From: Terriglobales bacterium
GTDB lineage: Bacteria; Acidobacteriota; Terriglobia; Terriglobales; Acidobacteriaceae
Direction of reading: 5' to 3'
DNA: 64,000 bases
Assembly (NCBI GenBank): GCA_016201265.1
Contig: JACQDD010000116.1
Span: forward strand, 1-64,000
Shown here: piece by piece, positions 2,069 to 13,046 of the stretch
How positions within the stretch are numbered: the first letter of the stretch is position 1
Layout of the letters: every line of letters begins with the position of its first letter
Made by a program: the position numbers and the translations under genes
Notes under the pieces: generated by a model
Seen by the model: only the letters and a program-made list of their open reading frames with translations
The model's database searches: none
Told to the model about the DNA's origin: nothing

Positions 2069-5000
2069 ATGTTCGTTGGCAGGACGCGGCAGACCTTATC
2101 TCTTCTTGGCATTCCTTATTTGTTCATTCTGATTCTGCTCGGGGGCGGGGCGCGGGCGCAGGACGCTTCGACGGGGGCGTTGCGCGGGACGGTGGTGGAT
2201 GCGCAGGGCGCGGCCGTTACGGCGGCCGACATCGTGGCGATCCGCGTGGATACGGGGATCCGCTATCACGGGGCGACCGACGCGGAGGGGCGCTTCATTC
2301 TCGACCTGCTGCCGCCGGGTGAGTACTCGGCACGGGCGGAGGCGGAGGGCATGTTGCCGCAGAATTCTCCGCTGGTGCGGGTGGAGGTGGGCGCGGCGAC
2401 GGAATTGGCGTTCAAGCTGGCGGTGGCGGGCGGGAAGGAAATCGTGGCGGTCTCGGATGCGCCGCAGCTGGTTGAGACGCAGCCCAGTGCGGTTTCGGCG
2501 CTGGTGGATGAACGGGCGATTGGGGATTTGCCGCTGAACGGGCGGCGCTACACCGATCTTTCGCTGCTCGCGCCGGGAGTGACGCAGGATCCGCGCGGGC
2601 TGACTTCGACTTCGAATGGCGATCTGGCGTTTGGAGGGGTTCGCGGCTACCAGTCGAGCTACCTGGTGGATGGCGCCGACAATAACAACGGCTTCTTCGC
2701 GCAGGCGCGGGGACGATATCGCGCGCCCTATCAGTTTTCGAATGAGGTGGTGAAGGAGTTCCGCGTTTCTTCCAACACTTATGGCGCGGAACTCGGACGC
2801 GCGGGCGGAGCGGTGGTCAACGTGGTGACCAAGTCCGGCTCGAATCACTGGCACGGCACGGGGTTTTATTTTCTGCGTGACAGCGCGCTGGGAGCTAGCC
2901 CGGCGTTTGTCGGATTCAAGCCGAGCGATCGGCAGCACCAGTTTGGGGGCACGCTGGGCGGGCCGATCCGGCGCAACAAGGCGTTTTTCTTTGCGGGATA
3001 CGATCAACACATTTTTCGCGTGCCGGCGGTGGTGGAGTTTGCGGACGGCAACACCGTGGTGATCCCGAAGAAGGGGGACGAGCCGCTGCATCACGGGGAC
3101 TATGAGGAGTCGGACAAAGACCTGGTGTTCGCGGCGGCGGCGAAACTTTCGACCATGGGCGGGACGTTCCGGTCGCAGCTGCTGGGGAATAGCGGGTTCG
3201 TGAAGGTGGACTATTCGCTGAGCCCGCGTGAGTTTCTGACGGCGCGGGTGAGCACGTCGCGGTACCACGGGCAGAACAACGTGTTCTTCGATCCGGCGAG
3301 CCCGGTTACGAACTTCAGTATGAGCTCGAATGGGGAAGAAGACGTGAAGACGGAGAGCGCGTCGCTGTCGTTGCTGAGCGGACTGACGCCGAAGCTGACC
3401 AGCCACCTGCGGGCACAGTTTTCGCGCGACCTGCAGCAGTCGTTTGCCAACTCCAGCGACGTGCGGACCCGCATCTACAACGTGATTGAGGCCTTCGGGC
3501 AGTCGTCGATCCTGCCGCGGCAGACCCGGGAGCACCGTTTGCACCTGGCTGAGACCTTGAGCCTCAGAGGCGGCCGGCACGACTGGAAGTTCGGCGGCGA
3601 CGCGATGCTGACGTGGGACTACAACTACTTTCCGTCACTGTACGGCGGCGAGTACATCTACGACAACATCAGCGTGGATCCGTGGACGTTCAAGCCCATG
3701 CATGGGGGCATGGAGATCACGCCGCTGCGGGCCTGGGCGCACAATGTGCCGCGGTACTACATCCAGAATTTCGGGAGTCCGGTGTCGCATCCGGACAGCA
3801 ACGACTACTCGGCTTTCCTGCAAGACACGGTGCGGGTGACGGGGCGTTTGGCGGTGAGTCTGGGGGTGCGCTATGACCTGCAGACCTTCGGCAGCAAGGA
3901 TTTGGTGAACAATCCGCTGTGGGCGGGGTCAGGGAAGATGCCCGCGGATAAGAACAATGTCTCGCCGCGAGTGGGAGTGGCGTATTCGATCGGGGATCAG
4001 CGGCCGCTGGTGGTGCGGGGCGGATTTGGCATCTTCTATACGCGGCTGCCTCAGATCTATGAGTCGGCGGTGATCAACAACAATGGGCTTGCGAGGACGC
4101 ATCTTTTCCTGGACAACGCGGACACGACGCAGCACCAGATATTCCCAACGTATCCGAATGCGCTGGTGGCGTGCAGCCCGGGGCCAGCGCCGTGCGTGCC
4201 GCCGGACTCGCTGAAGCCGTACCTGACAAGCGATATCTCCGCTTTTGCGCCGAACTTTATTACGCCTAAAGTGCAGCAGGGAAACTTGAGCGTGGAGCGG
4301 GAGATCGCAGATCGTTTTGCCGCGGGCGTGTCGTATCTGTATGTGCATGGGGAAAATTTGATCCGGGCGCGGGATGTAAACCTGCCGGCGCCGACGGAGT
4401 ACAGCTATCCGATTTATGACTCGGCCGGGGAAAACTTCACCAGCTCCTACTACACGGTGGAATCGTTCTCGACGTGGCAGATGACGCAGAGCATGAGCTG
4501 TCCGTATCCGCCGTGCATCAACGACGTGGCGCGGCCGGTGCCGGAACTGAGCGCGATCAACCAGTTTGATAGTGCGGCGACGAGCATTTATCACGGGCTG
4601 ACGGCGTCGCTGCGGCGGCGCATGACGCACGGGTTCTATTTCCGGCTGGCGTACACCTGGGCACACGCGATCGACGACGGGCAGGATGCGCTGGTGGCGG
4701 GGCGTCCGGTGACAGTGCAGAACTCGTATGCGACACGGAGTGAGCGCGGGCCGAGCGTCACGGATCAGCGGCACCGGCTGTCGGTATCCTGGATTGCGGA
4801 GCCGCGTCCGTTTGGACGAGGGCAGGAGATTCTGGCGAAGATATTCAACGATTGGAAATTGGCGGGAGTGATGACGTTTGGGAGCGGACGTCCAGCCGAG
4901 GCGCGGGTGACGGGAGATCCCAATCGGGATGAAAATTCCAGCAACGACCGGTTGCCCGGGTATGGACGGAATGCGTTTCTGGGTCCGGACTACGCGACCA

Positions 5001-5272
5001 TGGACCTGCGGCTGACGCGGAAGATTCGTGTAACCGAGCGCTTGCGACTCGAACTAACGGCCGAGTCTTTCAACCTTTTCAATCGCGACAATCGGCGCTA
5101 CAGCCTGAGCGATGACGGATTTCTGAATGCGGCGGGGCAGTTCGTTGCGCTCGACCGGAAAGCGGGGGGGAGGGTCTATCCCGCGTATTATCAGCAACCT
5201 ACAAACTTTATGCGGGCGACAAGCGCGTATGCTCCGCGGCTGGTGCAGTTGGGGCTGCGGTTGGTCTTCTAA
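2069..5272 (+). CDS. Oar-like TonB-dependent receptor with carboxypeptidase-regulatory-like N-domain
   Basis: Outer-membrane beta-barrel receptor of 1067 residues. A signal peptide (hydrophobic stretch then 'GGGARAQDAS') is followed at about 32-115 by a carboxypeptidase-D regulatory-like fold ('GALRGTVVDAQGAAVTAADI'), a plug domain (about 120-260; 'LPLNGRRYTDLSLLAPGV', 'GGAVVNVVTKSGSN'), and a long barrel ending in a terminal Phe ('LGLRLVF'). This layout is the acidobacterial/myxobacterial Oar type, expanded in Terriglobia and thought to take up sugars, peptides or other large substrates. The substrate cannot be read here. The start is fixed by AGGAGG six bases before the ATG. It is monocistronic; the next gene is rpsU. 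Confidence 0.9.
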   Translation: MFVGRTRQTLSLLGIPYLFILILLGGGARAQDASTGALRGTVVDAQGAAVTAADIVAIRVDTGIRYHGATDAEGRFILDLLPPGEYSARAEAEGMLPQNSPLVRVEVGAATELAFKLAVAGGKEIVAVSDAPQLVETQPSAVSALVDERAIGDLPLNGRRYTDLSLLAPGVTQDPRGLTSTSNGDLAFGGVRGYQSSYLVDGADNNNGFFAQARGRYRAPYQFSNEVVKEFRVSSNTYGAELGRAGGAVVNVVTKSGSNHWHGTGFYFLRDSALGASPAFVGFKPSDRQHQFGGTLGGPIRRNKAFFFAGYDQHIFRVPAVVEFADGNTVVIPKKGDEPLHHGDYEESDKDLVFAAAAKLSTMGGTFRSQLLGNSGFVKVDYSLSPREFLTARVSTSRYHGQNNVFFDPASPVTNFSMSSNGEEDVKTESASLSLLSGLTPKLTSHLRAQFSRDLQQSFANSSDVRTRIYNVIEAFGQSSILPRQTREHRLHLAETLSLRGGRHDWKFGGDAMLTWDYNYFPSLYGGEYIYDNISVDPWTFKPMHGGMEITPLRAWAHNVPRYYIQNFGSPVSHPDSNDYSAFLQDTVRVTGRLAVSLGVRYDLQTFGSKDLVNNPLWAGSGKMPADKNNVSPRVGVAYSIGDQRPLVVRGGFGIFYTRLPQIYESAVINNNGLARTHLFLDNADTTQHQIFPTYPNALVACSPGPAPCVPPDSLKPYLTSDISAFAPNFITPKVQQGNLSVEREIADRFAAGVSYLYVHGENLIRARDVNLPAPTEYSYPIYDSAGENFTSSYYTVESFSTWQMTQSMSCPYPPCINDVARPVPELSAINQFDSAATSIYHGLTASLRRRMTHGFYFRLAYTWAHAIDDGQDALVAGRPVTVQNSYATRSERGPSVTDQRHRLSVSWIAEPRPFGRGQEILAKIFNDWKLAGVMTFGSGRPAEARVTGDPNRDENSSNDRLPGYGRNAFLGPDYATMDLRLTRKIRVTERLRLELTAESFNLFNRDNRRYSLSDDGFLNAAGQFVALDRKAGGRVYPAYYQQPTNFMRATSAYAPRLVQLGLRLVF

Positions 5273-5300
5273 ATAGGGGGCGGTTTTTTGTACATTCCGC

Positions 5301-5330
5301 TTGACTTAGGTGGCCGATGCTTGCCATAAC
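5301..5330 (+). promoter_or_regulatory. sigma-70 type promoter for rpsU
   Basis: TTGACT (5301-5306) and CATAAC (5325-5330) are separated by 18 bases, upstream of the rpsU start by about 40 bases. The -35 box is a 5/6 match and the -10 a 4/6 match. Confidence 0.5.
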
Positions 5331-5370
5331 TAACGGGTCCAGTTAGGACGAGTAGGGGGGTGTATTAAGT

Positions 5371-5568
5371 TTGGCTGAAGTCAGACTTCAAGAGGGCGAG
5401 TCGCTGGAGAATGCGCTTCGCCGCTTCAAGCGGAAGGTACAGACGGAAGACATCATCAAGGAAGTGAAACGTCACTCCTATTACCTGAAGCCGGGAGAAA
5501 AGAAGCGGGTGAAAGAAGCGCTGGCACGCAAGCGCAGCCGTAAGAAAGCGCGCAAGGAACAAGATTAA
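5371..5568 (+). CDS. rpsU: 30S ribosomal protein S21
   Basis: A 65-residue basic protein matching bS21 throughout: 'ESLENALRRFKRK' near the N-terminus, and a Lys/Arg-rich tail ('RKRSRKKARKEQD'). bS21 binds the small subunit near the anti-Shine-Dalgarno end of 16S rRNA and helps initiation. The start codon is TTG, preceded by an AGGGGGGUG Shine-Dalgarno-like stretch ten bases away; no in-frame ATG fits. It has its own promoter and a GC-rich terminator hairpin. Length is normal for the family. Confidence 0.95.
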   Translation: MAEVRLQEGESLENALRRFKRKVQTEDIIKEVKRHSYYLKPGEKKRVKEALARKRSRKKARKEQD

Positions 5569-5574
5569 GCCAAC

Positions 5575-5604
5575 CGGGCCGTCGCACTGTGGGGTGACGG
5601 CCCG
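5575..5604 (+). terminator. terminator hairpin after rpsU
   Basis: CGGGCCGTC (5575-5583) pairs with GACGGCCCG (5596-5604) across a 12-base loop, starting seven bases after the rpsU stop. The following TTCCTCTCC is only weakly T-rich, so this may be a partly Rho-assisted terminator. Confidence 0.6.
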
Positions 5605-5796
5605 TTCCTCTCCCACTCGCATTATTCTGCAGTGCAGGAATTCTTAAGTGCAGTAACCATGCGATGCACTTCGCATGGCGGGCCGAATCCAGGGTCAATA
5701 TGAGGGGGATGTAATCCCCTGCCCACGTCGTGAACCGGATCCTTCCCCATTCGGTCTCCGTGAAGAGCAGGGACGGGGAATGGAGCGCCTCTTCAC

Positions 5797-6102
5797 ATGG
5801 AATTCCAGGACAAGCAGTTGAAGTGTGTGGATTGCGGCACGGACTTCGTTTTTACGGCGGGTGAACAGCTGTTCTTCCATGACAAGCAGTTCAAGAACGA
5901 ACCGAAACGCTGCAAGAACTGCAAGGGAAAACGGGTCGCAGTGCTGGGATCTGGTCACGGGCAGTCCTACGCGAAAACGGAAACGCGGACGAACTGCTCG
6001 CAGTGCGGCAAAGAGACGACGGTACCGTTTCGTCCCAGCCAGGGGCGGCCGGTGTTGTGCCGGGAGTGCTTTCAGCAGAAACGGCAGATCGCAAGCGCCT
6101 GA
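5797..6102 (+). CDS. small double zinc-ribbon (CxxC-x17-CxxC) protein
   Basis: A 101-residue protein with two pairs of zinc knuckles: 'LKCVDCGTDFVF' with 'KRCKNCKGKR' in the first half, and 'TNCSQCGKETTVPF' with 'VLCRECFQQKR' in the second. This is the probable zinc-ribbon / CxxC-x17-CxxC arrangement common in deep-branching bacteria, thought to bind nucleic acid or protein. Its specific role is unknown. A GGAG motif lies about 14 bases before the ATG, which is longer than ideal. It follows rpsU but is separated by a terminator and a small hairpin (CCATGCGA/TCGCATGG, 5657-5678). Confidence 0.75.
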   Translation: MEFQDKQLKCVDCGTDFVFTAGEQLFFHDKQFKNEPKRCKNCKGKRVAVLGSGHGQSYAKTETRTNCSQCGKETTVPFRPSQGRPVLCRECFQQKRQIASA

Positions 6103-6142
6103 TCATCCTTAGAAGGGAAAGAGGAACGCGGCGAGACGGGTA

Positions 6143-6577
6143 CTAGCCCGCCTTGCGGGAGGGTTCCTGCGCCGCGGCGGCGGCGGAGATGCGCTGCCGA
6201 GTCTGCTTTGCGTCCTCGTGGCGGACGAGCAGGGCCTCGACCTGGCGCAGCAGAGCGCTGGTGCCCAGGGGTTTGATCAGCAGAGACTCGGAGTGGTCTT
6301 CCTCCCAATGTTCTCCGGAGGGGGGGTAGGCAGTGAGCAGGGCGGTGGCGGGATCATAGCTCTGGCGGCGCGCGGCTAAGATCACCTTCAGGCCGGCGTC
6401 TTCGGTTTCCATGCGCAAGTCGCTGATGACCATCTGGTAGGTGGCGGACTCCAGGCGGGAAAAGGCTTCGAGCGTGCTGGCCGCGGTTTCCACTTCAAAT
6501 CCATGGAATTCCAGGACGGCTTTCAGGGTCAGCAGGACGGCCAGATCGTCGTCCACGAGAAGAATGCGCCGTTTCAT
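6143..6577 (-). CDS. stand-alone response regulator receiver protein
   Basis: Single-domain CheY-like receiver of 144 residues. The acidic pocket (D9, D10 in 'LLVDDD'), phospho-acceptor D53 ('MVISDLRME'), the switch Thr in 'ALLTAY' and conserved Lys in 'LLIKPLG' are all present. There is no output domain; the C-terminus is an Arg/Ala-rich tail. No sensor kinase is adjacent, so its partner is unknown. The start at 6577 has AGAGGTG at good spacing; the longer ORF start (6613) lacks this and adds non-family residues. It converges with the zinc-ribbon gene. Confidence 0.88.
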   Translation of the reverse strand: MKRRILLVDDDLAVLLTLKAVLEFHGFEVETAASTLEAFSRLESATYQMVISDLRMETEDAGLKVILAARRQSYDPATALLTAYPPSGEHWEEDHSESLLIKPLGTSALLRQVEALLVRHEDAKQTRQRISAAAAAQEPSRKAG

Positions 6578-6680
6578 ATGCACCTCTGAGGCAAGCTGGG
6601 AGATGCAGAGCACTGCGGAATCGGTCCGCAGCTGCCGCCGGCCGCTTCAGGCCCCACACCCACTCAGTTAGTATAGAAGC

Positions 6681-8222
6681 GTGGCCAGCTTCTACATAGA
6701 GAATTTTGGCTGCCGCGCCACGCAGGCGGATGGGGCGGCGCTGGAAAGCCGGTTTCTGGAGCGCGGTCTGGAGCGCGCCCATGCCGCGCGCGACGCCGAA
6801 ATTGTCGTTCTCAACACCTGCACGGTGACCGCGGGCGCCGACAAGGATGCGCGCGCTTCGATTCGGAGAGTGCGGCGAGAGAATCCGGCGTGCCGCATAC
6901 TGGTAACGGGGTGTTACGCACAGCGCGCGCCGGAAGAACTGGCGGCGCTGCCGGGCGTCACCTGGGTAGTGGGGAATTCGCACAAGCACCTGGCGGCGGA
7001 GATCGCAACCTCTCCTGATTCTTCTTCCAAGGCCGGCTTTGTTCCACTGTCGCAACTTTCCAGCGAACGAGACAGCAACGTTATAGTGGGCGACATCTTC
7101 GCGCACACCGAACTGCTGGCGGCGCCGGTGTTTGAAGCGGCAAACGAGCGCACCCGGCCGAACCTCAAGGTGCAGGACGGATGTGACAATCGCTGCTCGT
7201 TCTGCGTGATTCCGTATGTGCGGGGCCAGAGCCGGTCGCTGCCGCTGGAGCGGGTGCTGGCTGAGGTGCGGGCGCTGGTAGGGGCGGGCTATCGGGAAGT
7301 GGTGATCTCGGGGATTAATTTGGGGAGATGGGGGAGAGACTTGCCGGTCGTTGGTCGTCCGTCGTTAGTCGTTGGCGAACCGGACCCAGGAGACTCTGTG
7401 GTGACGATGCGCGGCCAACAGCCACCGACGAATCGAGAACGACCAACGACTAACGACCACCGACTAGAGGGTCTTGTCCGCGCGATCCTGGAGGAGACGT
7501 CGCTCGAGAAGCTCAGGATCAGTTCTGTGGAGCCGATGGATTGGAGTGATGAGCTGATCGAGATGATGGCGAATTCTCATCGGATTGCCAAGCATGCGCA
7601 TGTGCCGCTGCAGTCGGCGAGTGATGCGGTGCTGCGGCGGATGCACCGCAAGTATCGGCCGTGGCATTACCGGGAGAAGATTTTGAAGATCCGGAAGGCC
7701 ATGCCCGAGGCGGCGATTGGGGCGGATGTCATGGTGGGATTTCCGGGCGAGACCGATGCGGAGTTTGCCGAGACGCGGCGCATGGTCGAAGAGTTGCCCT
7801 TTACCTACCTGCACGTATTCACGTATTCGGCACGGCCAGGAACGCCGGCTGCGGAACAGAGCGATCAGGTGCCGGTGGCGGTAGCGCGGGAGCGCAACCA
7901 AGTGTTGCGGGAGATTGCTGCTGCGAGGAAGGCGGCGTTTGTTCGATCGCAGTTGGGGATGATCGTACAAGCGATCACGCTGCGGTCAGGCGACGGGGAG
8001 TGCACCGAAGCGCTGACCGACAACTACCTGAAGATGAGAATTCCCGGACGGCTGGAAGCGAATCGCTGGATCGAGGTGCAGGTGGACGACGCCGAGGGCG
8101 AAGTGCTGGTGGGACGGGCGTGTGTGGGGGGCGCAGTCGGGCCGGAGAAGCAGACCGAAGTAACCCTGGAGAATACTCAGAAGTCCAACAAGTTCATTGA
8201 CCTGCAACCTTTTGCGGGCTAG
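6681..8222 (+). CDS. mtaB: MtaB-like tRNA methylthiotransferase with in-frame insertion
   Basis: Radical-SAM methylthiotransferase of 513 residues that probably adds a methylthio group to t6A37 of ANN-decoding tRNAs. N-terminal UPF0004 domain with its three Fe-S cysteines ('FGCRATQADG', 'NTCTVT', 'VTGCYAQ'), the radical-SAM triad in 'CDNRCSFCVIP', and a C-terminal TRAM-like region (from about 445). The family is usually 420-450 residues. Here about 41 extra residues (roughly 222-262, between 'GRWGRDL' and 'LVRAILEE') are encoded by a palindromic DNA repeat described separately. The start is GTG at 6681 (MASFYIENFGC), the only one upstream of the first Cys. First gene of a probable mtaB-fecR-like-rodA operon. 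Confidence 0.9.
   Translation: MASFYIENFGCRATQADGAALESRFLERGLERAHAARDAEIVVLNTCTVTAGADKDARASIRRVRRENPACRILVTGCYAQRAPEELAALPGVTWVVGNSHKHLAAEIATSPDSSSKAGFVPLSQLSSERDSNVIVGDIFAHTELLAAPVFEAANERTRPNLKVQDGCDNRCSFCVIPYVRGQSRSLPLERVLAEVRALVGAGYREVVISGINLGRWGRDLPVVGRPSLVVGEPDPGDSVVTMRGQQPPTNRERPTTNDHRLEGLVRAILEETSLEKLRISSVEPMDWSDELIEMMANSHRIAKHAHVPLQSASDAVLRRMHRKYRPWHYREKILKIRKAMPEAAIGADVMVGFPGETDAEFAETRRMVEELPFTYLHVFTYSARPGTPAAEQSDQVPVAVARERNQVLREIAAARKAAFVRSQLGMIVQAITLRSGDGECTEALTDNYLKMRIPGRLEANRWIEVQVDDAEGEVLVGRACVGGAVGPEKQTEVTLENTQKSNKFIDLQPFAG
7346..7468. repeat. palindromic repeat inserted in frame within mtaB
   Basis: GTCGTTAGTCGTTGG (7361-7375) is a perfect inverted repeat of CCAACGACTAACGAC (7443-7457), and the outer sequences repeat the same GGTCGTTGGTCGT theme. 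The whole unit is a multiple of three in effect, adds a low-complexity peptide (VVGRPSLVV...ERPTTNDHR), and interrupts a region conserved in MtaB proteins. This is the signature of a mobile palindromic element that has landed in a coding sequence without breaking it. Confidence 0.7.
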
Positions 8223-8223
8223 G

Positions 8224-8943
8224 ATGAGTCAAAACCTCAAGATTACGGGAGTGAGTTTGACCATGTCACAGACGGTGTTACGGTCTGTTCTGAGTATGGT
8301 GCTGGCGCTGCTGCTGCCAGGGCAGCTGCTTGCGGCAGACTCGGCATCGGCGATGCTGTACGCGAACGGCACGGCCTGGGTGAACGGCAGTTCGGTACCC
8401 AAGTCAGCGGCGGTGTTCGCCGGAGACATGGTGCAGACGCGGCCAGATTCTACCGCCCATATCAGCGCCAGCGGCTCGAGTGTGATGGTGCTGTCGGACT
8501 CACTGGTGAAGTTTCAGGGGCCAGCCGTGGAGATCGAGCACGGTGCCGTCCGTGTGTCCACCGCGCGCGGGCTGGAGACGCGGGCCGGCGAGGTGACGGT
8601 AAAGCCGGCGGGAAATTCCTGGACCGAGTTCCAGGTCACCGATGTTGACGGACAGGTACAGATTGCCGCCAACAAAGGCGACGTGACGATTCAGGATCAG
8701 CAAGGGACCACGACGCTGCAGCAGGGGCAGCAGACCACGCGCGACGATACCTCCAATCCGGAACAGAAAAAGAAGAGGAAGCGGCGCGGCGCCGGAGCTG
8801 CAACGGCGGCGGGCGGCGGAATCCTGAGTACGAGCACAGCGATCTACACCGGCATCGCGATTGTCGGCGGCATCACAACCTGGGTGCTGCTGCAACACGA
8901 TGAGCCGCTGAGTCCGGCTTGTCCCAACAATACCTGCCCATGA
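8224..8943 (+). CDS. FecR-like envelope protein of unknown function
   Basis: A 239-residue exported protein. After a signal peptide ('LALLLPGQLLAADS') comes a FecR-like beta domain (about 40-175): 'GTAWVNGSSVPKSAAVFAGDMVQT' and 'VKFQGPAVEIEHGAVRVST' are typical of the FecR/filamin-like fold. It ends with a basic stretch ('KKKRKRRGAG'), a Gly/Ala-rich segment and one probable membrane helix ('IYTGIAIVGGITTWVLL'). No sigma factor is nearby, so it is not an obvious FecIR regulator. It lies directly between mtaB and rodA, same strand, with short gaps. I chose ATG 8224; ATG 8263 with GGAGTGAG upstream is almost as good. Confidence 0.65.
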   Translation: MSQNLKITGVSLTMSQTVLRSVLSMVLALLLPGQLLAADSASAMLYANGTAWVNGSSVPKSAAVFAGDMVQTRPDSTAHISASGSSVMVLSDSLVKFQGPAVEIEHGAVRVSTARGLETRAGEVTVKPAGNSWTEFQVTDVDGQVQIAANKGDVTIQDQQGTTTLQQGQQTTRDDTSNPEQKKKRKRRGAGAATAAGGGILSTSTAIYTGIAIVGGITTWVLLQHDEPLSPACPNNTCP

Positions 8944-8967
8944 AGTGCCCGGTGAGCGACTGAAGCC

Positions 8968-10068
8968 ATGTCGCGCTATGTATCCTACCGAGATTTTGAC
9001 TGGGTCCTGATGGGATTCGTGCTCGTACTCTGCACGCTGGGCGTGCTGCAGATCCACAGCGCCACCGCGCACACCAAGTTTGCCGGCGCTCACATCAAGC
9101 AAGTCTACTGGGTGCTGGCGGGCGTAGGGGCAATGTTTCTGGTGAGCCTGGTGAACTATCAGGCGCTGCTGGAAAAAATCCATTGGATGTACGTCGCCTC
9201 GCTGGCCTCGCTGATTGCGGTGCTGCTATTCGGGCAGAAGTACCTGGGAGCGCGGCGCTGGATCAAGATGCCATGGAACGTGCATTTTCAGCCCTCGGAG
9301 TGGGTAAAGCTCATCCTGATTCTGGCGGTGGCCAAGTACTTTGCGGACCTTCACCAGCGGGAACTTTCCTGGTCGGACTTCGTCAAGGCGGGCGCGATCG
9401 TGGGCTTTCCCATGCTGATGGTGCTGGCGCAGCCGGATTTGGGCACCGCGCTCACCTACATTCCAGTCGCGGTGACGGCGCTTTTTCTGGGAGGATTGCG
9501 GCTGCGGCAAGCGCTGCCGGTCGTTCTCCTCGGCACTGCCATCGTGGCCGCAGTGTTTTTCTCGGATCGCGTCCACATCCTCAAGCCCTACCAGAAAGAG
9601 CGTTTGACGAGTTTTCTGAACCCGGATGCGGACCGCCAGGGCTCCGGGTACCAAGTTAATCAATCCCTGATTGCGGTGGGGTCGGGGGGAATCTGGGGAA
9701 GCAGCCAGGGATCGCAGACCCACCTGGCGTTTCTGCCGGTGCCGCAGACGGATTTTATTTTTGCGGCGTTTGCGGAAGAACACGGGTTTGTAGGAGCTCT
9801 TGGGGTTCTGCTGTTATACTTCATTGTGTTGATGCGTTTGACCCAGAACGCGCAAACGGCGCCCGACCGCGCCGGGACGTTTCTGGTGATGGGGGTGGTA
9901 GCTGTGCTTAGCTTCCACGTCCTGGTCAACGTCGGCATGGTGGTTGGCTTTATGCCGGTCACCGGAATACCTTTGCCGCTCATGAGCTACGGTGGGTCGT
10001 CCGTCCTGTTTATGTTTCTGGCGCTGGGGATGGTGATGAACGTCCGGATGCGCCGCTTCGTGAACTGA
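8968..10068 (+). CDS. rodA: rod-shape-determining SEDS peptidoglycan polymerase RodA
   Basis: Integral membrane glycosyltransferase of 366 residues with about ten membrane helices. It polymerises lipid II during side-wall elongation together with PBP2. Family motifs are clear: 'QPSEWVKL', 'LAQPDLGTALTY' (with the catalytic-region Asp), 'VGSGGIWG' and the C-terminal 'TGIPLPLMSYGGSSV'. Length fits RodA (about 370), and the 'FMPVTGIPLP' form is closer to RodA than to FtsW. Located 24 bases after the FecR-like gene and upstream of rng, echoing the mre-rod-rng neighbourhood of other bacteria. Confidence 0.93.
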   Translation: MSRYVSYRDFDWVLMGFVLVLCTLGVLQIHSATAHTKFAGAHIKQVYWVLAGVGAMFLVSLVNYQALLEKIHWMYVASLASLIAVLLFGQKYLGARRWIKMPWNVHFQPSEWVKLILILAVAKYFADLHQRELSWSDFVKAGAIVGFPMLMVLAQPDLGTALTYIPVAVTALFLGGLRLRQALPVVLLGTAIVAAVFFSDRVHILKPYQKERLTSFLNPDADRQGSGYQVNQSLIAVGSGGIWGSSQGSQTHLAFLPVPQTDFIFAAFAEEHGFVGALGVLLLYFIVLMRLTQNAQTAPDRAGTFLVMGVVAVLSFHVLVNVGMVVGFMPVTGIPLPLMSYGGSSVLFMFLALGMVMNVRMRRFVN

Positions 10069-10409: not shown

Positions 10410-13046
10410 ATGAACAAGGAATTGTATGTGTCGTCCACTCCTCACGAAACCAAAGTGGGGATTGTGGAAGATGATCAGCTTGCAGAAATTTACCTGGAAC
10501 TCGAAAACGAATACACCTTAGCGGGTTCCATCTATAAAGGCCGCGTGACGCGCGTGCTGCCCGGCATGCAGTCGGCCTTTGTGGACATTGGACTGGAACG
10601 GGACGCCTTCCTCTACGTTTCCGACTTCATGGATCTGGAGCAGCAGGACGAGGATCTGGACGAGGCGATTCCAGCCGGGCGTCCGCCGGAGGGTCGTTCG
10701 CAGCGGACTCCTGAACCGGCGATGCCAGCGATGGAGGTCCGAACCTCGGGCGCTGTGGAGGCCGAGAGCCAGACGGAAGATGGCGGGATCGAAGCGGTTT
10801 CGTCGGAAGCATCAAGCTCGGGCGGGGATTGGGTACGCGATCCGCGAGGATTTCGCGGGCGGCGGCGCCGCCGCGGACGTCGCCCCGAACGCCCCGAACG
10901 TGGAGAACGCGGCGGTGAGCGCGGGGAACGGGACCGCAATGGATCGGAGCCTCGGCCGGAGTCTCGGCCGGAGACGCGCTTTCAGCGTCCGCCAGCCCAG
11001 GACGCGCGGTCGGGACGCGACTATGATTACGGACCGCCACCGGGATATCAGCCCATCCTTCTTCCGGGCGAGTCTATCTCGAAGTACCGGCGGCAGGCAC
11101 AGGGTTCGGTCGCTCCAGCGGAAGCGCCGGCGCAGGAGCGGTCGTCGCCGGCTACGGTCGCAGGACGCTTTCCCGACGACGAACCAATGTTTGCCGCGGG
11201 AGAGGCGGAACCGCTCCGCGAACAGCATGAGCACGTGAGTGCGGCGGAGGGTTACGACGAGCCACAGGGAATCGTTTCCAGCGCAGCTTCGGAAGTGGTG
11301 GAGCTGGAGACTGGTGCGTCAGAGACGGCTTTGCCGGAGATCGCGCACGAGGCGGATTTCCGGGCCGCCATCCAGGTTCCGACTGCAGACCATATCGAGG
11401 AACAGGAGATCGAAGAGGAAGAAGCCGATCTCGACTCGTACGCGGAGGAACTGGAAGAAGATGCTGCGTTCGAGGAACTGGAAGAAGAGACGCGTGCAGC
11501 GGGAGAGTCAACCTCTACGGTTAGTTTGCAGGAGCCAGCGGCGGAACCGGTAGCCGAGGGTTTGAGTGCCGAGCCGGCCGAAGCCGCCGAGGGAGCTTCG
11601 GAAGCCGTCCTGGAAGAAGAAGAGATGGAGGCGGAGGAACTGGAACTGGAAGAGGCTCAGGAAGAAGCTGAGGCGCTTCTGGAAGCGGAGGCAATTGGCG
11701 CGGGCACGGTGGACGCCAGTGCCGAAGTACGAAGCTCGGCTCCAGAGGCGAGGTTGCAGCGGGCACCGCGTCCGGCGCCGGGGTTTGACCGGCGGCGCGG
11801 ACGCCGCGGGGGCCGGCGTTTCCACCGTCGCGAGAACACGGTTGTACCCCAGATCAGCGAACTGCTCAAGGAAGGGCAGGAGATCCTGGTGCAGATCGCC
11901 AAGGAACCGATCGGAAAGAAGGGCGCGCGCATTACCAGCCACATCGCCCTGCCGGGACGCTTTCTGGTGTACATGCCGACGGTGAATCACACCGGCGTGT
12001 CGCGCAAGATCGCTTCCGAGGAAGAACGGTTGCGGCTGAAGCGAATCATTCACAGCGAGCGGGAGAACGGGCACGGTGGCTTCATCGTGCGCACCGCCGC
12101 GCAGGGAGCGTCGGACGAGGAGCTGCGCGCCGATATCCGTTTCCTGAAGAATCTGTGGACCGAGATCAAGTCGCGGTCGGACAGCAGCAAGCCTCCGGCG
12201 TTGATCTACCACGACCTGAACGTAGTGGAGCGGGTTTTGCGCGACCAGGTAACCTCGGACTTCTCAGTCATCTGGGTGGACACGGAAACGGAATACGAGC
12301 GCATCCTGCGCTTTGCCAACCGTTTCCAGCCGGCGCTGGTGAAGCGGGTCAAGCTTTACACCAAGGAGACGCCGCTCTACGAGCAGTTCGGCCTGAACGA
12401 GGAACTCAACAAGGCGCTGAAGTCGAAGGTCTGGCTGAAGAGTGGCGGATACATCGTCATCAATCAGACCGAGGCGCTGGTGGCGATCGACGTGAACACC
12501 GGCAAGTACGTGGGCAAGACCGCCCGACTGGAAGACACAATCGTCAAGACCAACGTGGATGCGATCCGGGAGATCGTGCGGCAGATCCGGCTGCGCGACC
12601 TGGGCGGGATCATTGTGATTGATTTCATCGACATGGACGAACGCCGCAACCGGCAGAAAGTGATGCAGGCGCTGGAAGAGGCGTTGCGGTTGGATCGCGC
12701 GCCGTCGAAGGCGCTGCAGTTCAACGATTTCGGTCTGGTCGCGATTACACGCAAGCGGGTGAAGCAGTCGCTCGAACGCACGATTGGATCGCCGTGTCCG
12801 TATTGCCAGGCGACCGGGTTCGTGAAGTCAGTGAACACGGTCTGCAACGAGGTGTATGTCGAGATGCGGAAGATCTCGAAGCACCTGGAGCACAGCGACG
12901 TGATGCTGCGCGTGAATCCTGAGGTGGCGAAAGCGCTCAAGGCCAACAATGCGCGCTTGTTGAACGAAATGGAAGAACTGGTGAAGAAGACGATCATCGT
13001 GAAGTCCGATCCGGCGCTGCACCAGGAGCAGTTCGATATTCACTGA
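10410..13046 (+). CDS. rng: ribonuclease G/E with large insertion in the S1 domain
   Basis: Endoribonuclease of 878 residues; RNase G/E initiates mRNA decay and rRNA processing at AU-rich sites. The first half of the S1 RNA-binding domain is at about 35-75 ('SIYKGRVTRVLPGMQSAFVDIG'), and the second half resumes only at about 481 ('ILVQIAKEPIGKKGARITSHI'). The DNase-I-like catalytic core follows, with metal-binding Asp in 'VAIDVNTGKY' (about 691) and 'IVIDFIDMDERRN' (about 735), then the zinc-link 'CPYC' (about 796). The intervening 400 residues are low complexity: Arg/Gly/Glu-rich first, then strongly acidic. Typical RNase G is about 490 residues. Start ATG with CGGAG six bases upstream; a strong terminator follows. 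Confidence 0.92.
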   Translation: MNKELYVSSTPHETKVGIVEDDQLAEIYLELENEYTLAGSIYKGRVTRVLPGMQSAFVDIGLERDAFLYVSDFMDLEQQDEDLDEAIPAGRPPEGRSQRTPEPAMPAMEVRTSGAVEAESQTEDGGIEAVSSEASSSGGDWVRDPRGFRGRRRRRGRRPERPERGERGGERGERDRNGSEPRPESRPETRFQRPPAQDARSGRDYDYGPPPGYQPILLPGESISKYRRQAQGSVAPAEAPAQERSSPATVAGRFPDDEPMFAAGEAEPLREQHEHVSAAEGYDEPQGIVSSAASEVVELETGASETALPEIAHEADFRAAIQVPTADHIEEQEIEEEEADLDSYAEELEEDAAFEELEEETRAAGESTSTVSLQEPAAEPVAEGLSAEPAEAAEGASEAVLEEEEMEAEELELEEAQEEAEALLEAEAIGAGTVDASAEVRSSAPEARLQRAPRPAPGFDRRRGRRGGRRFHRRENTVVPQISELLKEGQEILVQIAKEPIGKKGARITSHIALPGRFLVYMPTVNHTGVSRKIASEEERLRLKRIIHSERENGHGGFIVRTAAQGASDEELRADIRFLKNLWTEIKSRSDSSKPPALIYHDLNVVERVLRDQVTSDFSVIWVDTETEYERILRFANRFQPALVKRVKLYTKETPLYEQFGLNEELNKALKSKVWLKSGGYIVINQTEALVAIDVNTGKYVGKTARLEDTIVKTNVDAIREIVRQIRLRDLGGIIVIDFIDMDERRNRQKVMQALEEALRLDRAPSKALQFNDFGLVAITRKRVKQSLERTIGSPCPYCQATGFVKSVNTVCNEVYVEMRKISKHLEHSDVMLRVNPEVAKALKANNARLLNEMEELVKKTIIVKSDPALHQEQFDIH

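Follow-up and report, generated by a model that had tools for sequence, protein, structure and literature searches.

A palindromic heptad element in frame within acidobacterial mtaB, at a loop that relatives fill with unrelated palindromes

How does a gene for an ancient tRNA-modifying enzyme come to carry, within its reading frame, a stretch that is palindromic as DNA? The question is raised by mtaB, the gene for the tRNA t6A37 methylthiotransferase, in the genome of a soil acidobacterium of the Terriglobales (2.93 Mb; a fragmented MAG, 76% complete), of which we analyzed one stretch of 64,000 nucleotides, here called the window. The gene occupies positions 6681-8222 of the forward strand as a single open reading frame of 513 codons, uninterrupted across the palindromic segment, and its product scores 390.9 bits against the curated MtaB model TIGR01579 (cut-off 357.05). 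A preliminary description, made from the sequence alone, held that about 41 residues interrupt MtaB at a 15-base perfect inverted repeat, with the frame kept on both sides, and all of this stands, the segment that we delimit (7344-7466, forward strand) lying within 2 nt of the one first proposed (7346-7468).

The segment, at what we call site B, comprises codons 222-262 of mtaB, the 41 codons between the motifs GRWGRDL and (E)GLVRAIL, as delimited in alignments of 60 and of 25 relatives, and it stands in for a loop of six codons in those relatives in which the site is empty; about six of the 41 codons represent the ancestral linker, and the net gain is 35 residues. Its left arm (7347-7373, forward strand) is built of four GTCGTTN heptads (GTCGTTG GTCGTCC GTCGTTA GTCGTT), with GGC after them at the edge of the loop; its right arm (7438-7464, reverse strand), encoding the peptide ERPTTNDHR, is built of four inverse heptads (AACGACC AACGACT AACGACC ACCGAC); and the 64-nt hairpin loop between them (7374-7437) is not common to other copies of the element, sharing 7-mers with them no more than shuffles do. 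The perfect inverted repeat, located by pattern search, lies within these arms, its first copy, GTCGTTAGTCGTTGG, at 7361-7375 on the forward strand and the second, the exact reverse complement of the first, at 7443-7457 on the reverse strand. Allowing up to two mismatches, GTCGTTAGTCGTTGG has two matches in the window, versus 0.06 expected, and 20 Markov shuffles of the window produced just one 15-bp inverted repeat within 120 nt. Longer, imperfect arms can also be drawn, 7347-7376 pairing with 7421-7450 and 7354-7375 with 7443-7464. The encoded peptide (VVGRPSLVVG ... ERPTTNDHRL) had been described as of low complexity; it is not so in the strict sense, and it is better described as derived from the heptads. 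The hairpin energy of the segment is modestly better than that of shuffles (z of -2.2 as DNA and -2.3 as RNA), and because the gain is modest we do not argue for an RNA role; Rfam has no match within positions 5000-10000 of the window.

An AlphaFold model of the protein, built from 34 sequences, has a well-folded core (mean pLDDT 77, pTM 0.74) and matches, by structure comparison, the MtaB of Bacillus subtilis (9a6d) and MiaB (7mjw). Confidence falls below a pLDDT of 50 at residues 116-129, in a second site, A, the linker between the N-terminal and the radical-SAM domains (7005-7082, forward strand, defined by comparison of relatives' mtaB), and at residues 226-256, in site B. In the MiaB structure 7mjv the equivalent of site B is a short loop between chain residues 221 and 232, and thus the insert probably forms an exposed, disordered loop of MtaB. 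We would expect the enzyme to stay active with its insert, and the insert peptide itself to have no selected function. Elsewhere in the window, an open reading frame at 10410-13046, RNase E/G-like as judged by eye from its translation, appears to have some 400 acidic and arginine-rich residues of low complexity inserted near its N-terminal S1 part.

We now have a rich set of relatives in which the fate of site B can be followed, 84 MtaB rows in which the site could be read, including some near-copies, one genome being present in two collections. In 27 of these rows, deep branches of the Acidobacteriota among them, the site is empty, the stretch from GRDL to the strand KLRISSVE measuring exactly 20 residues, and these rows represent the ancestral loop. 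Most of the other rows hold heptad inserts, of at least five families or mosaics of these. GTCGTT palindromes are found in this genome and in L002/L124, L114, and L115; TCAGYY arrays in further relatives; TCRGAC palindromes in L008, L016, and L027; CGGCTT palindromes in L015, L035, and L057; TTCGCT elements in L058 and L060; and mosaics joining a left part of the TCAGCT kind to an AACGAC right arm in L003, L005, L010, and L023. In L001/L117 a TCAGCT array adjoins a complete GTCGTT palindrome, in what looks like a nested insertion. Sixteen rows fall outside these classes, some being GC-rich or decayed. Short GC-rich palindromic inserts (GGGCGGGCGCCCTCGCCCGCC) are seen at site B in L007 and L018, apparently yet another family. 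Insert lengths vary from roughly 10 to 50 codons, and the sequences are unrelated. In the genus, every genome whose site B could be read has an insert of some kind there, and the right-arm peptide RPTTNDQRL recurs in many species. Wherever it can be read, the frame is kept across the insert; the frameshifts that occur in mtaB of a few relatives' MAGs lie elsewhere in the gene. In one same-genus MAG (L133, G015:C54), frameshifts are seen near residues 149-168, perhaps through assembly error.

The comparison with relatives, which the preliminary description had proposed as a check, thus returns either no segment or a different palindrome at the same place. As the position is the same, the families are different, and the outgroup is empty, the simplest reading of these alignments is that site B has been filled repeatedly and independently. 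On a tree of 78 MtaB cores, from which both insert regions were excluded, the family labels need 36 changes, the five GTCGTT rows needing 5, and the families are distributed in a way that does not fit the tree; the MtaB closest to ours is 86% identical over the core. An alternative reading would be replacement, in place, of one family by another.

Site A tells a similar story through a different set of sequences. No palindrome is present there in this genome, and several same-genus species carry in-frame palindromes of the CCCACCCTTTCGCAAAGAACGCGAAAGAGTGGGGCACCC type (twice in L127), other inserts being a TCGGAC palindrome (L123), an AACGAC arm (L138), and a GTCATCCTGAGC element (L140). The last of these belongs to a dispersed family: a GTCATCCTGAGC-type repeat is seen at 157-184 of the window, and a variant lies inside the loop of the heptad element L180. 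All of the 34 period-7 arrays within mtaB are at site A (13) or at site B (21), and their density, 34 in 84 kb of mtaB, may be set against 24 in the surrounding 513 kb. The CCCACCCTTTCGCAAAGAACGCGAAAGAGTGGGGCACCC-type palindromes are of the kind that stands beside a RAYT gene in this genome, which has two RAYT (Y1_Tnp) loci, L111 (G000:C198) and L112 (G000:C134); the open reading frame at L111:1465-2028 encodes a HENPVRRG motif and has short palindrome matches on both sides. The type is present in multiple copies in the genus, 22 of the 24 genomes having a match; the exact CCCACCCTTTCGCAAAGAACGCGAAAGAGTGGGGCACCC pattern has no match in this genome, whose copies have a shorter stem. REPs of the RAYT type thus do enter mtaB in this genus.

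A second gene presents a comparable case. In the same genome, thiE (Pfam TMP-TENI; L153:2534-3190, or G000:C158:10534-11190, reverse strand) contains an in-frame array of AGCGACY heptads, while at that site the thiE genes of most same-genus relatives carry an ACTGAGA array and those of five species carry neither. The empty sites already hold a GAGAACT-like seed (for example, GAGAACTCC in L231), and the arrays of different families have the same phase and the same 3' anchor, CTCGC, the shared phase giving a hint of heptad turnover in place. In thiE, then, as in mtaB, one site has been filled recurrently.

The element in mtaB is one of many. With one mismatch allowed, the GTCGTTAGTCGTTGG 15-mer has 42 matches in the genome, versus 0 for the reversed control, so the palindrome is far from unique, and the matches group into about 28 elements. 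Their architecture, as read from 30 copies in this genome and the same genus, is fixed: two to five GTCGTTN heptads, NGC, a loop of 4-111 nt, GCN, and two to five AACGACN heptads, with arms mostly of three or four, so that tandem 7-nt units of the heptamer-repeat kind are present in the elements. Within the heptad, the first six positions show 87-99% conservation, and the seventh is free, with counts of G 179, A 104, C 74, and T 11. Terminal inverted repeats of the MITE kind are formed by 26 of 28 adjacent array pairs, the other two being same-strand neighbors, and all 26 have the polarity GTCGTT...AACGAC, none the opposite. The loops of different copies are unrelated, having no more 7-mers in common than shuffled loops, and arms paired within an element resemble each other no more closely than arms taken from different elements do, with no co-variation between an element's own arms. 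No target-site duplication was detected in the listed elements (score of 21 versus a shuffle mean of 16, with 123 of 500 shuffles as high), and no GTAG tag recurs at the ends of the 30 copies. In sampled genome stretches, period-7 arrays occur at 23.2 per 100 kb, an absolute rate inflated by the choice of stretches around heptad matches, versus 0-3.3 for periods 5, 6, and 8-13 and 0.3 for Markov sequences; the same period-7 peak is seen in a neutral sample, made up of mtaB loci from other Acidobacteriota (10.5 versus 0.3-2.5 for other periods). Arrays of the GTCGTTNGTCGTTNGTCG type are present in 23 of 24 same-genus genomes, with the control near 0, and a second heptad family, TCAGCTN, is present in 22 of 24. 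Across the phylum GTCGTT arrays were found in only 15 of 396 Acidobacteriota genomes sampled, and pure long tandems of the same heptads are seen in distant families.

Copies of the element are mostly intergenic, and among the approximately 28 the only ones within credible genes are the one in mtaB and a solo arm in thiE. Open frames across six other copies (L146, L148, L151, L155, L157, and L161) have no Pfam match and look antisense or spurious, and an M20 peptidase match at L159 is downstream of the heptad element there. Heptad elements are not enriched in open frames (1.9 of 6 versus 2.2 in shuffles), and because they are not unusually rich in these, we ascribe survival in frame to selection.

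The reading that we favor, and consider very probable, is that what we see is a copy of a palindromic element, dispersed and without a transposase, which entered mtaB in an ancestor and survives in a tolerant loop. Such an element would consist of an arbitrary loop flanked on either side by about four GTCGTTN heptads, the two arrays being in inverse orientation; its length would have preserved the reading frame when it inserted into a loop at the surface of the radical SAM domain; and, as this loop would tolerate added residues, copies there would survive selection and be read as disordered peptide, most others lasting only between genes. The site B loop, the second linker of MtaB, and one loop of ThiE would then have been filled many times over by unrelated families in sister lineages. 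Neither a RAYT flank nor a target-site duplication nor a polymorphic insertion was found, and we therefore infer the mobility of the element from its distribution; copies could move by hairpin or single-strand copying, or by seeding followed by heptad expansion. Copy-and-paste of a fixed sequence is not visible, as the loops are unrelated and the arms within an element are no more alike, and neither is repair of one arm from the other, as an element's own arms resemble each other no more than they do foreign arms. The six constant heptad positions may be kept by protein binding, by hairpin movement combined with loop decay, or by heptad turnover.

The closest contender, which we regard as unlikely though deserving of attention, holds that nothing has been transposed: a short native seed in a tolerant loop would expand locally by slippage in steps of 7 nt, template switching would create the second arm, and the same heptads would recur through genome-wide seeds or a polymerase bias. 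The strict period with its one free position, the unrelated loops, the several heptad families per genus, the GAGAACT-like seeds in empty thiE sites (GAGAACTCC) with the common phase and CTCGC anchor of the arrays there, and the pure long tandems in distant families are all as slippage would have them. However, the same hexamer, with a free seventh base, recurs at dozens of unlinked positions and does so in 23 of the 24 genomes, the polarity is fixed in 26 of 26 inverted pairs, with common NGC...GCN loop edges, and the arms of an element lack the extra mutual similarity that local template switching would be expected to give them. Movement of heptad hairpins as REPs by the Y1 tyrosine transposases of the genome appears improbable. 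Two RAYT loci are indeed present, and palindromes of the kind adjoining them do enter mtaB in relatives at site A, but the RAYT genes are flanked by palindromes of a different make (CCCACCCT..GGGTGGG), neither of the two loci has heptads, no enzyme has been linked to the heptads, and the heptad elements have no GTAG tag.

We consider it more improbable still that selection maintains the insert as a conserved domain of acidobacterial MtaB. The occupancy of every readable site B in the genus and the recurrence of RPTTNDQRL would fit such a domain, but the inserts are unrelated in sequence and length, 27 rows have none, the segment is modeled with low confidence, and the recurring RL pair coincides with the residues that start the helix in empty relatives, so that its conservation is to be expected. 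An error of assembly or sequencing, or a pseudogene in decay, may be suspected in a fragmented and incomplete MAG some of whose relatives have frameshifts in mtaB, but we give this hardly any credence: independent genomes have GTCGTT palindromes at the same site with frames intact, which already contradicts an artefact, and the relatives' frameshifts are located elsewhere in the gene.

Among known systems, the mtaB element works like the Rickettsia palindromic elements (RPEs), judging by their published descriptions, and we do not claim membership. RPEs are dispersed palindromes of approximately 100-150 bp, with several families per lineage, that are found in frame in conserved enzymes and add 30-50 residues (PMC10969869, PMC3733652). 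The resemblance, proposed in the preliminary description, holds for an in-frame palindrome in a conserved protein gene, and it fails in two respects. In Rickettsia conorii, about half of the copies of RPE families are inside open reading frames (PMC10969869), while most heptad copies lie between genes, and the peptide encoded along an RPE is conserved within its family, whereas here the heptad arms alone are shared and the loop is arbitrary. RPE-4 and RPE-6 have CGTC ends and short stems (PMC3733652). The GTAG/CGTC REPs with RAYTs described by Di Nocera and colleagues (2013) are multi-copy, mostly extragenic palindromes of many bacteria beyond Rickettsia, some of them in frame in genes for DNA repair and RNA modification, for example at about the same recB site in two Xanthomonas species (PMC3733652). 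The relatives' inserts at site A fit the REP kind. The heptad elements, in contrast to these hairpins of 5-13 bp, have arms of two to five heptads, loops of 4-111 nt, and no adjoining transposase, and CGTC REPs in particular are defined by a CGTC tag, a stem of 8-9 bp, and a loop of 4-5 nt (PMC3733652), dimensions that heptad stems and loops do not share. Another example is the TAACTGA heptamer tandem repeats of Beggiatoaceae and Cyanobacteria, likewise scattered, with a 7-nt period and no known mechanism of spread (PMC4679880). There the repeats run in direct orientation, one genome having 169 direct sets and a single indirect one (PMC4679880), unlike the arrays here, which are paired in inverse orientation and leave one base of each heptad free. 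Foldback elements of Drosophila, Galileo and FB, are similar in form, with long inverted repeats of short units around a variable middle (PMC3573991), but they are eukaryotic and kilobase-sized, and the analogy is one of form, with no homology claimed. In the open-access literature we found no description of heptad palindromes in Acidobacteriota, which is weak evidence of absence. It is conceivable, if somewhat doubtful, that heptad palindromes make up a bacterial class of their own, foldback-like and with no dedicated transposase, in which only the heptad code of the arms is spread or maintained around arbitrary loops, and whose families of different heptads replace each other at tolerant sites, so that loops of housekeeping enzymes would be rewritten repeatedly.

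Overall, of the suggestion that mobile repeats generate new protein segments, the creation of protein sequence by dispersed in-frame palindromes is well supported, with thiE as a second case, and mobility is what the distribution points to. In-frame palindromes were known already; what appears to be new is the heptad palindromes, with an unusually rich comparative series. In a single alignment, with empty sites as controls, selfish palindromes are seen turning into protein sequence: unrelated families have filled one loop of an ancient tRNA-modifying enzyme many times and left the rest of the protein intact. The heptad arms prompt one to ask by what means short hairpins without a transposase are spread, and the mtaB and thiE genes of this genus offer a ready system for asking whether peptides so gained are neutral or exapted.
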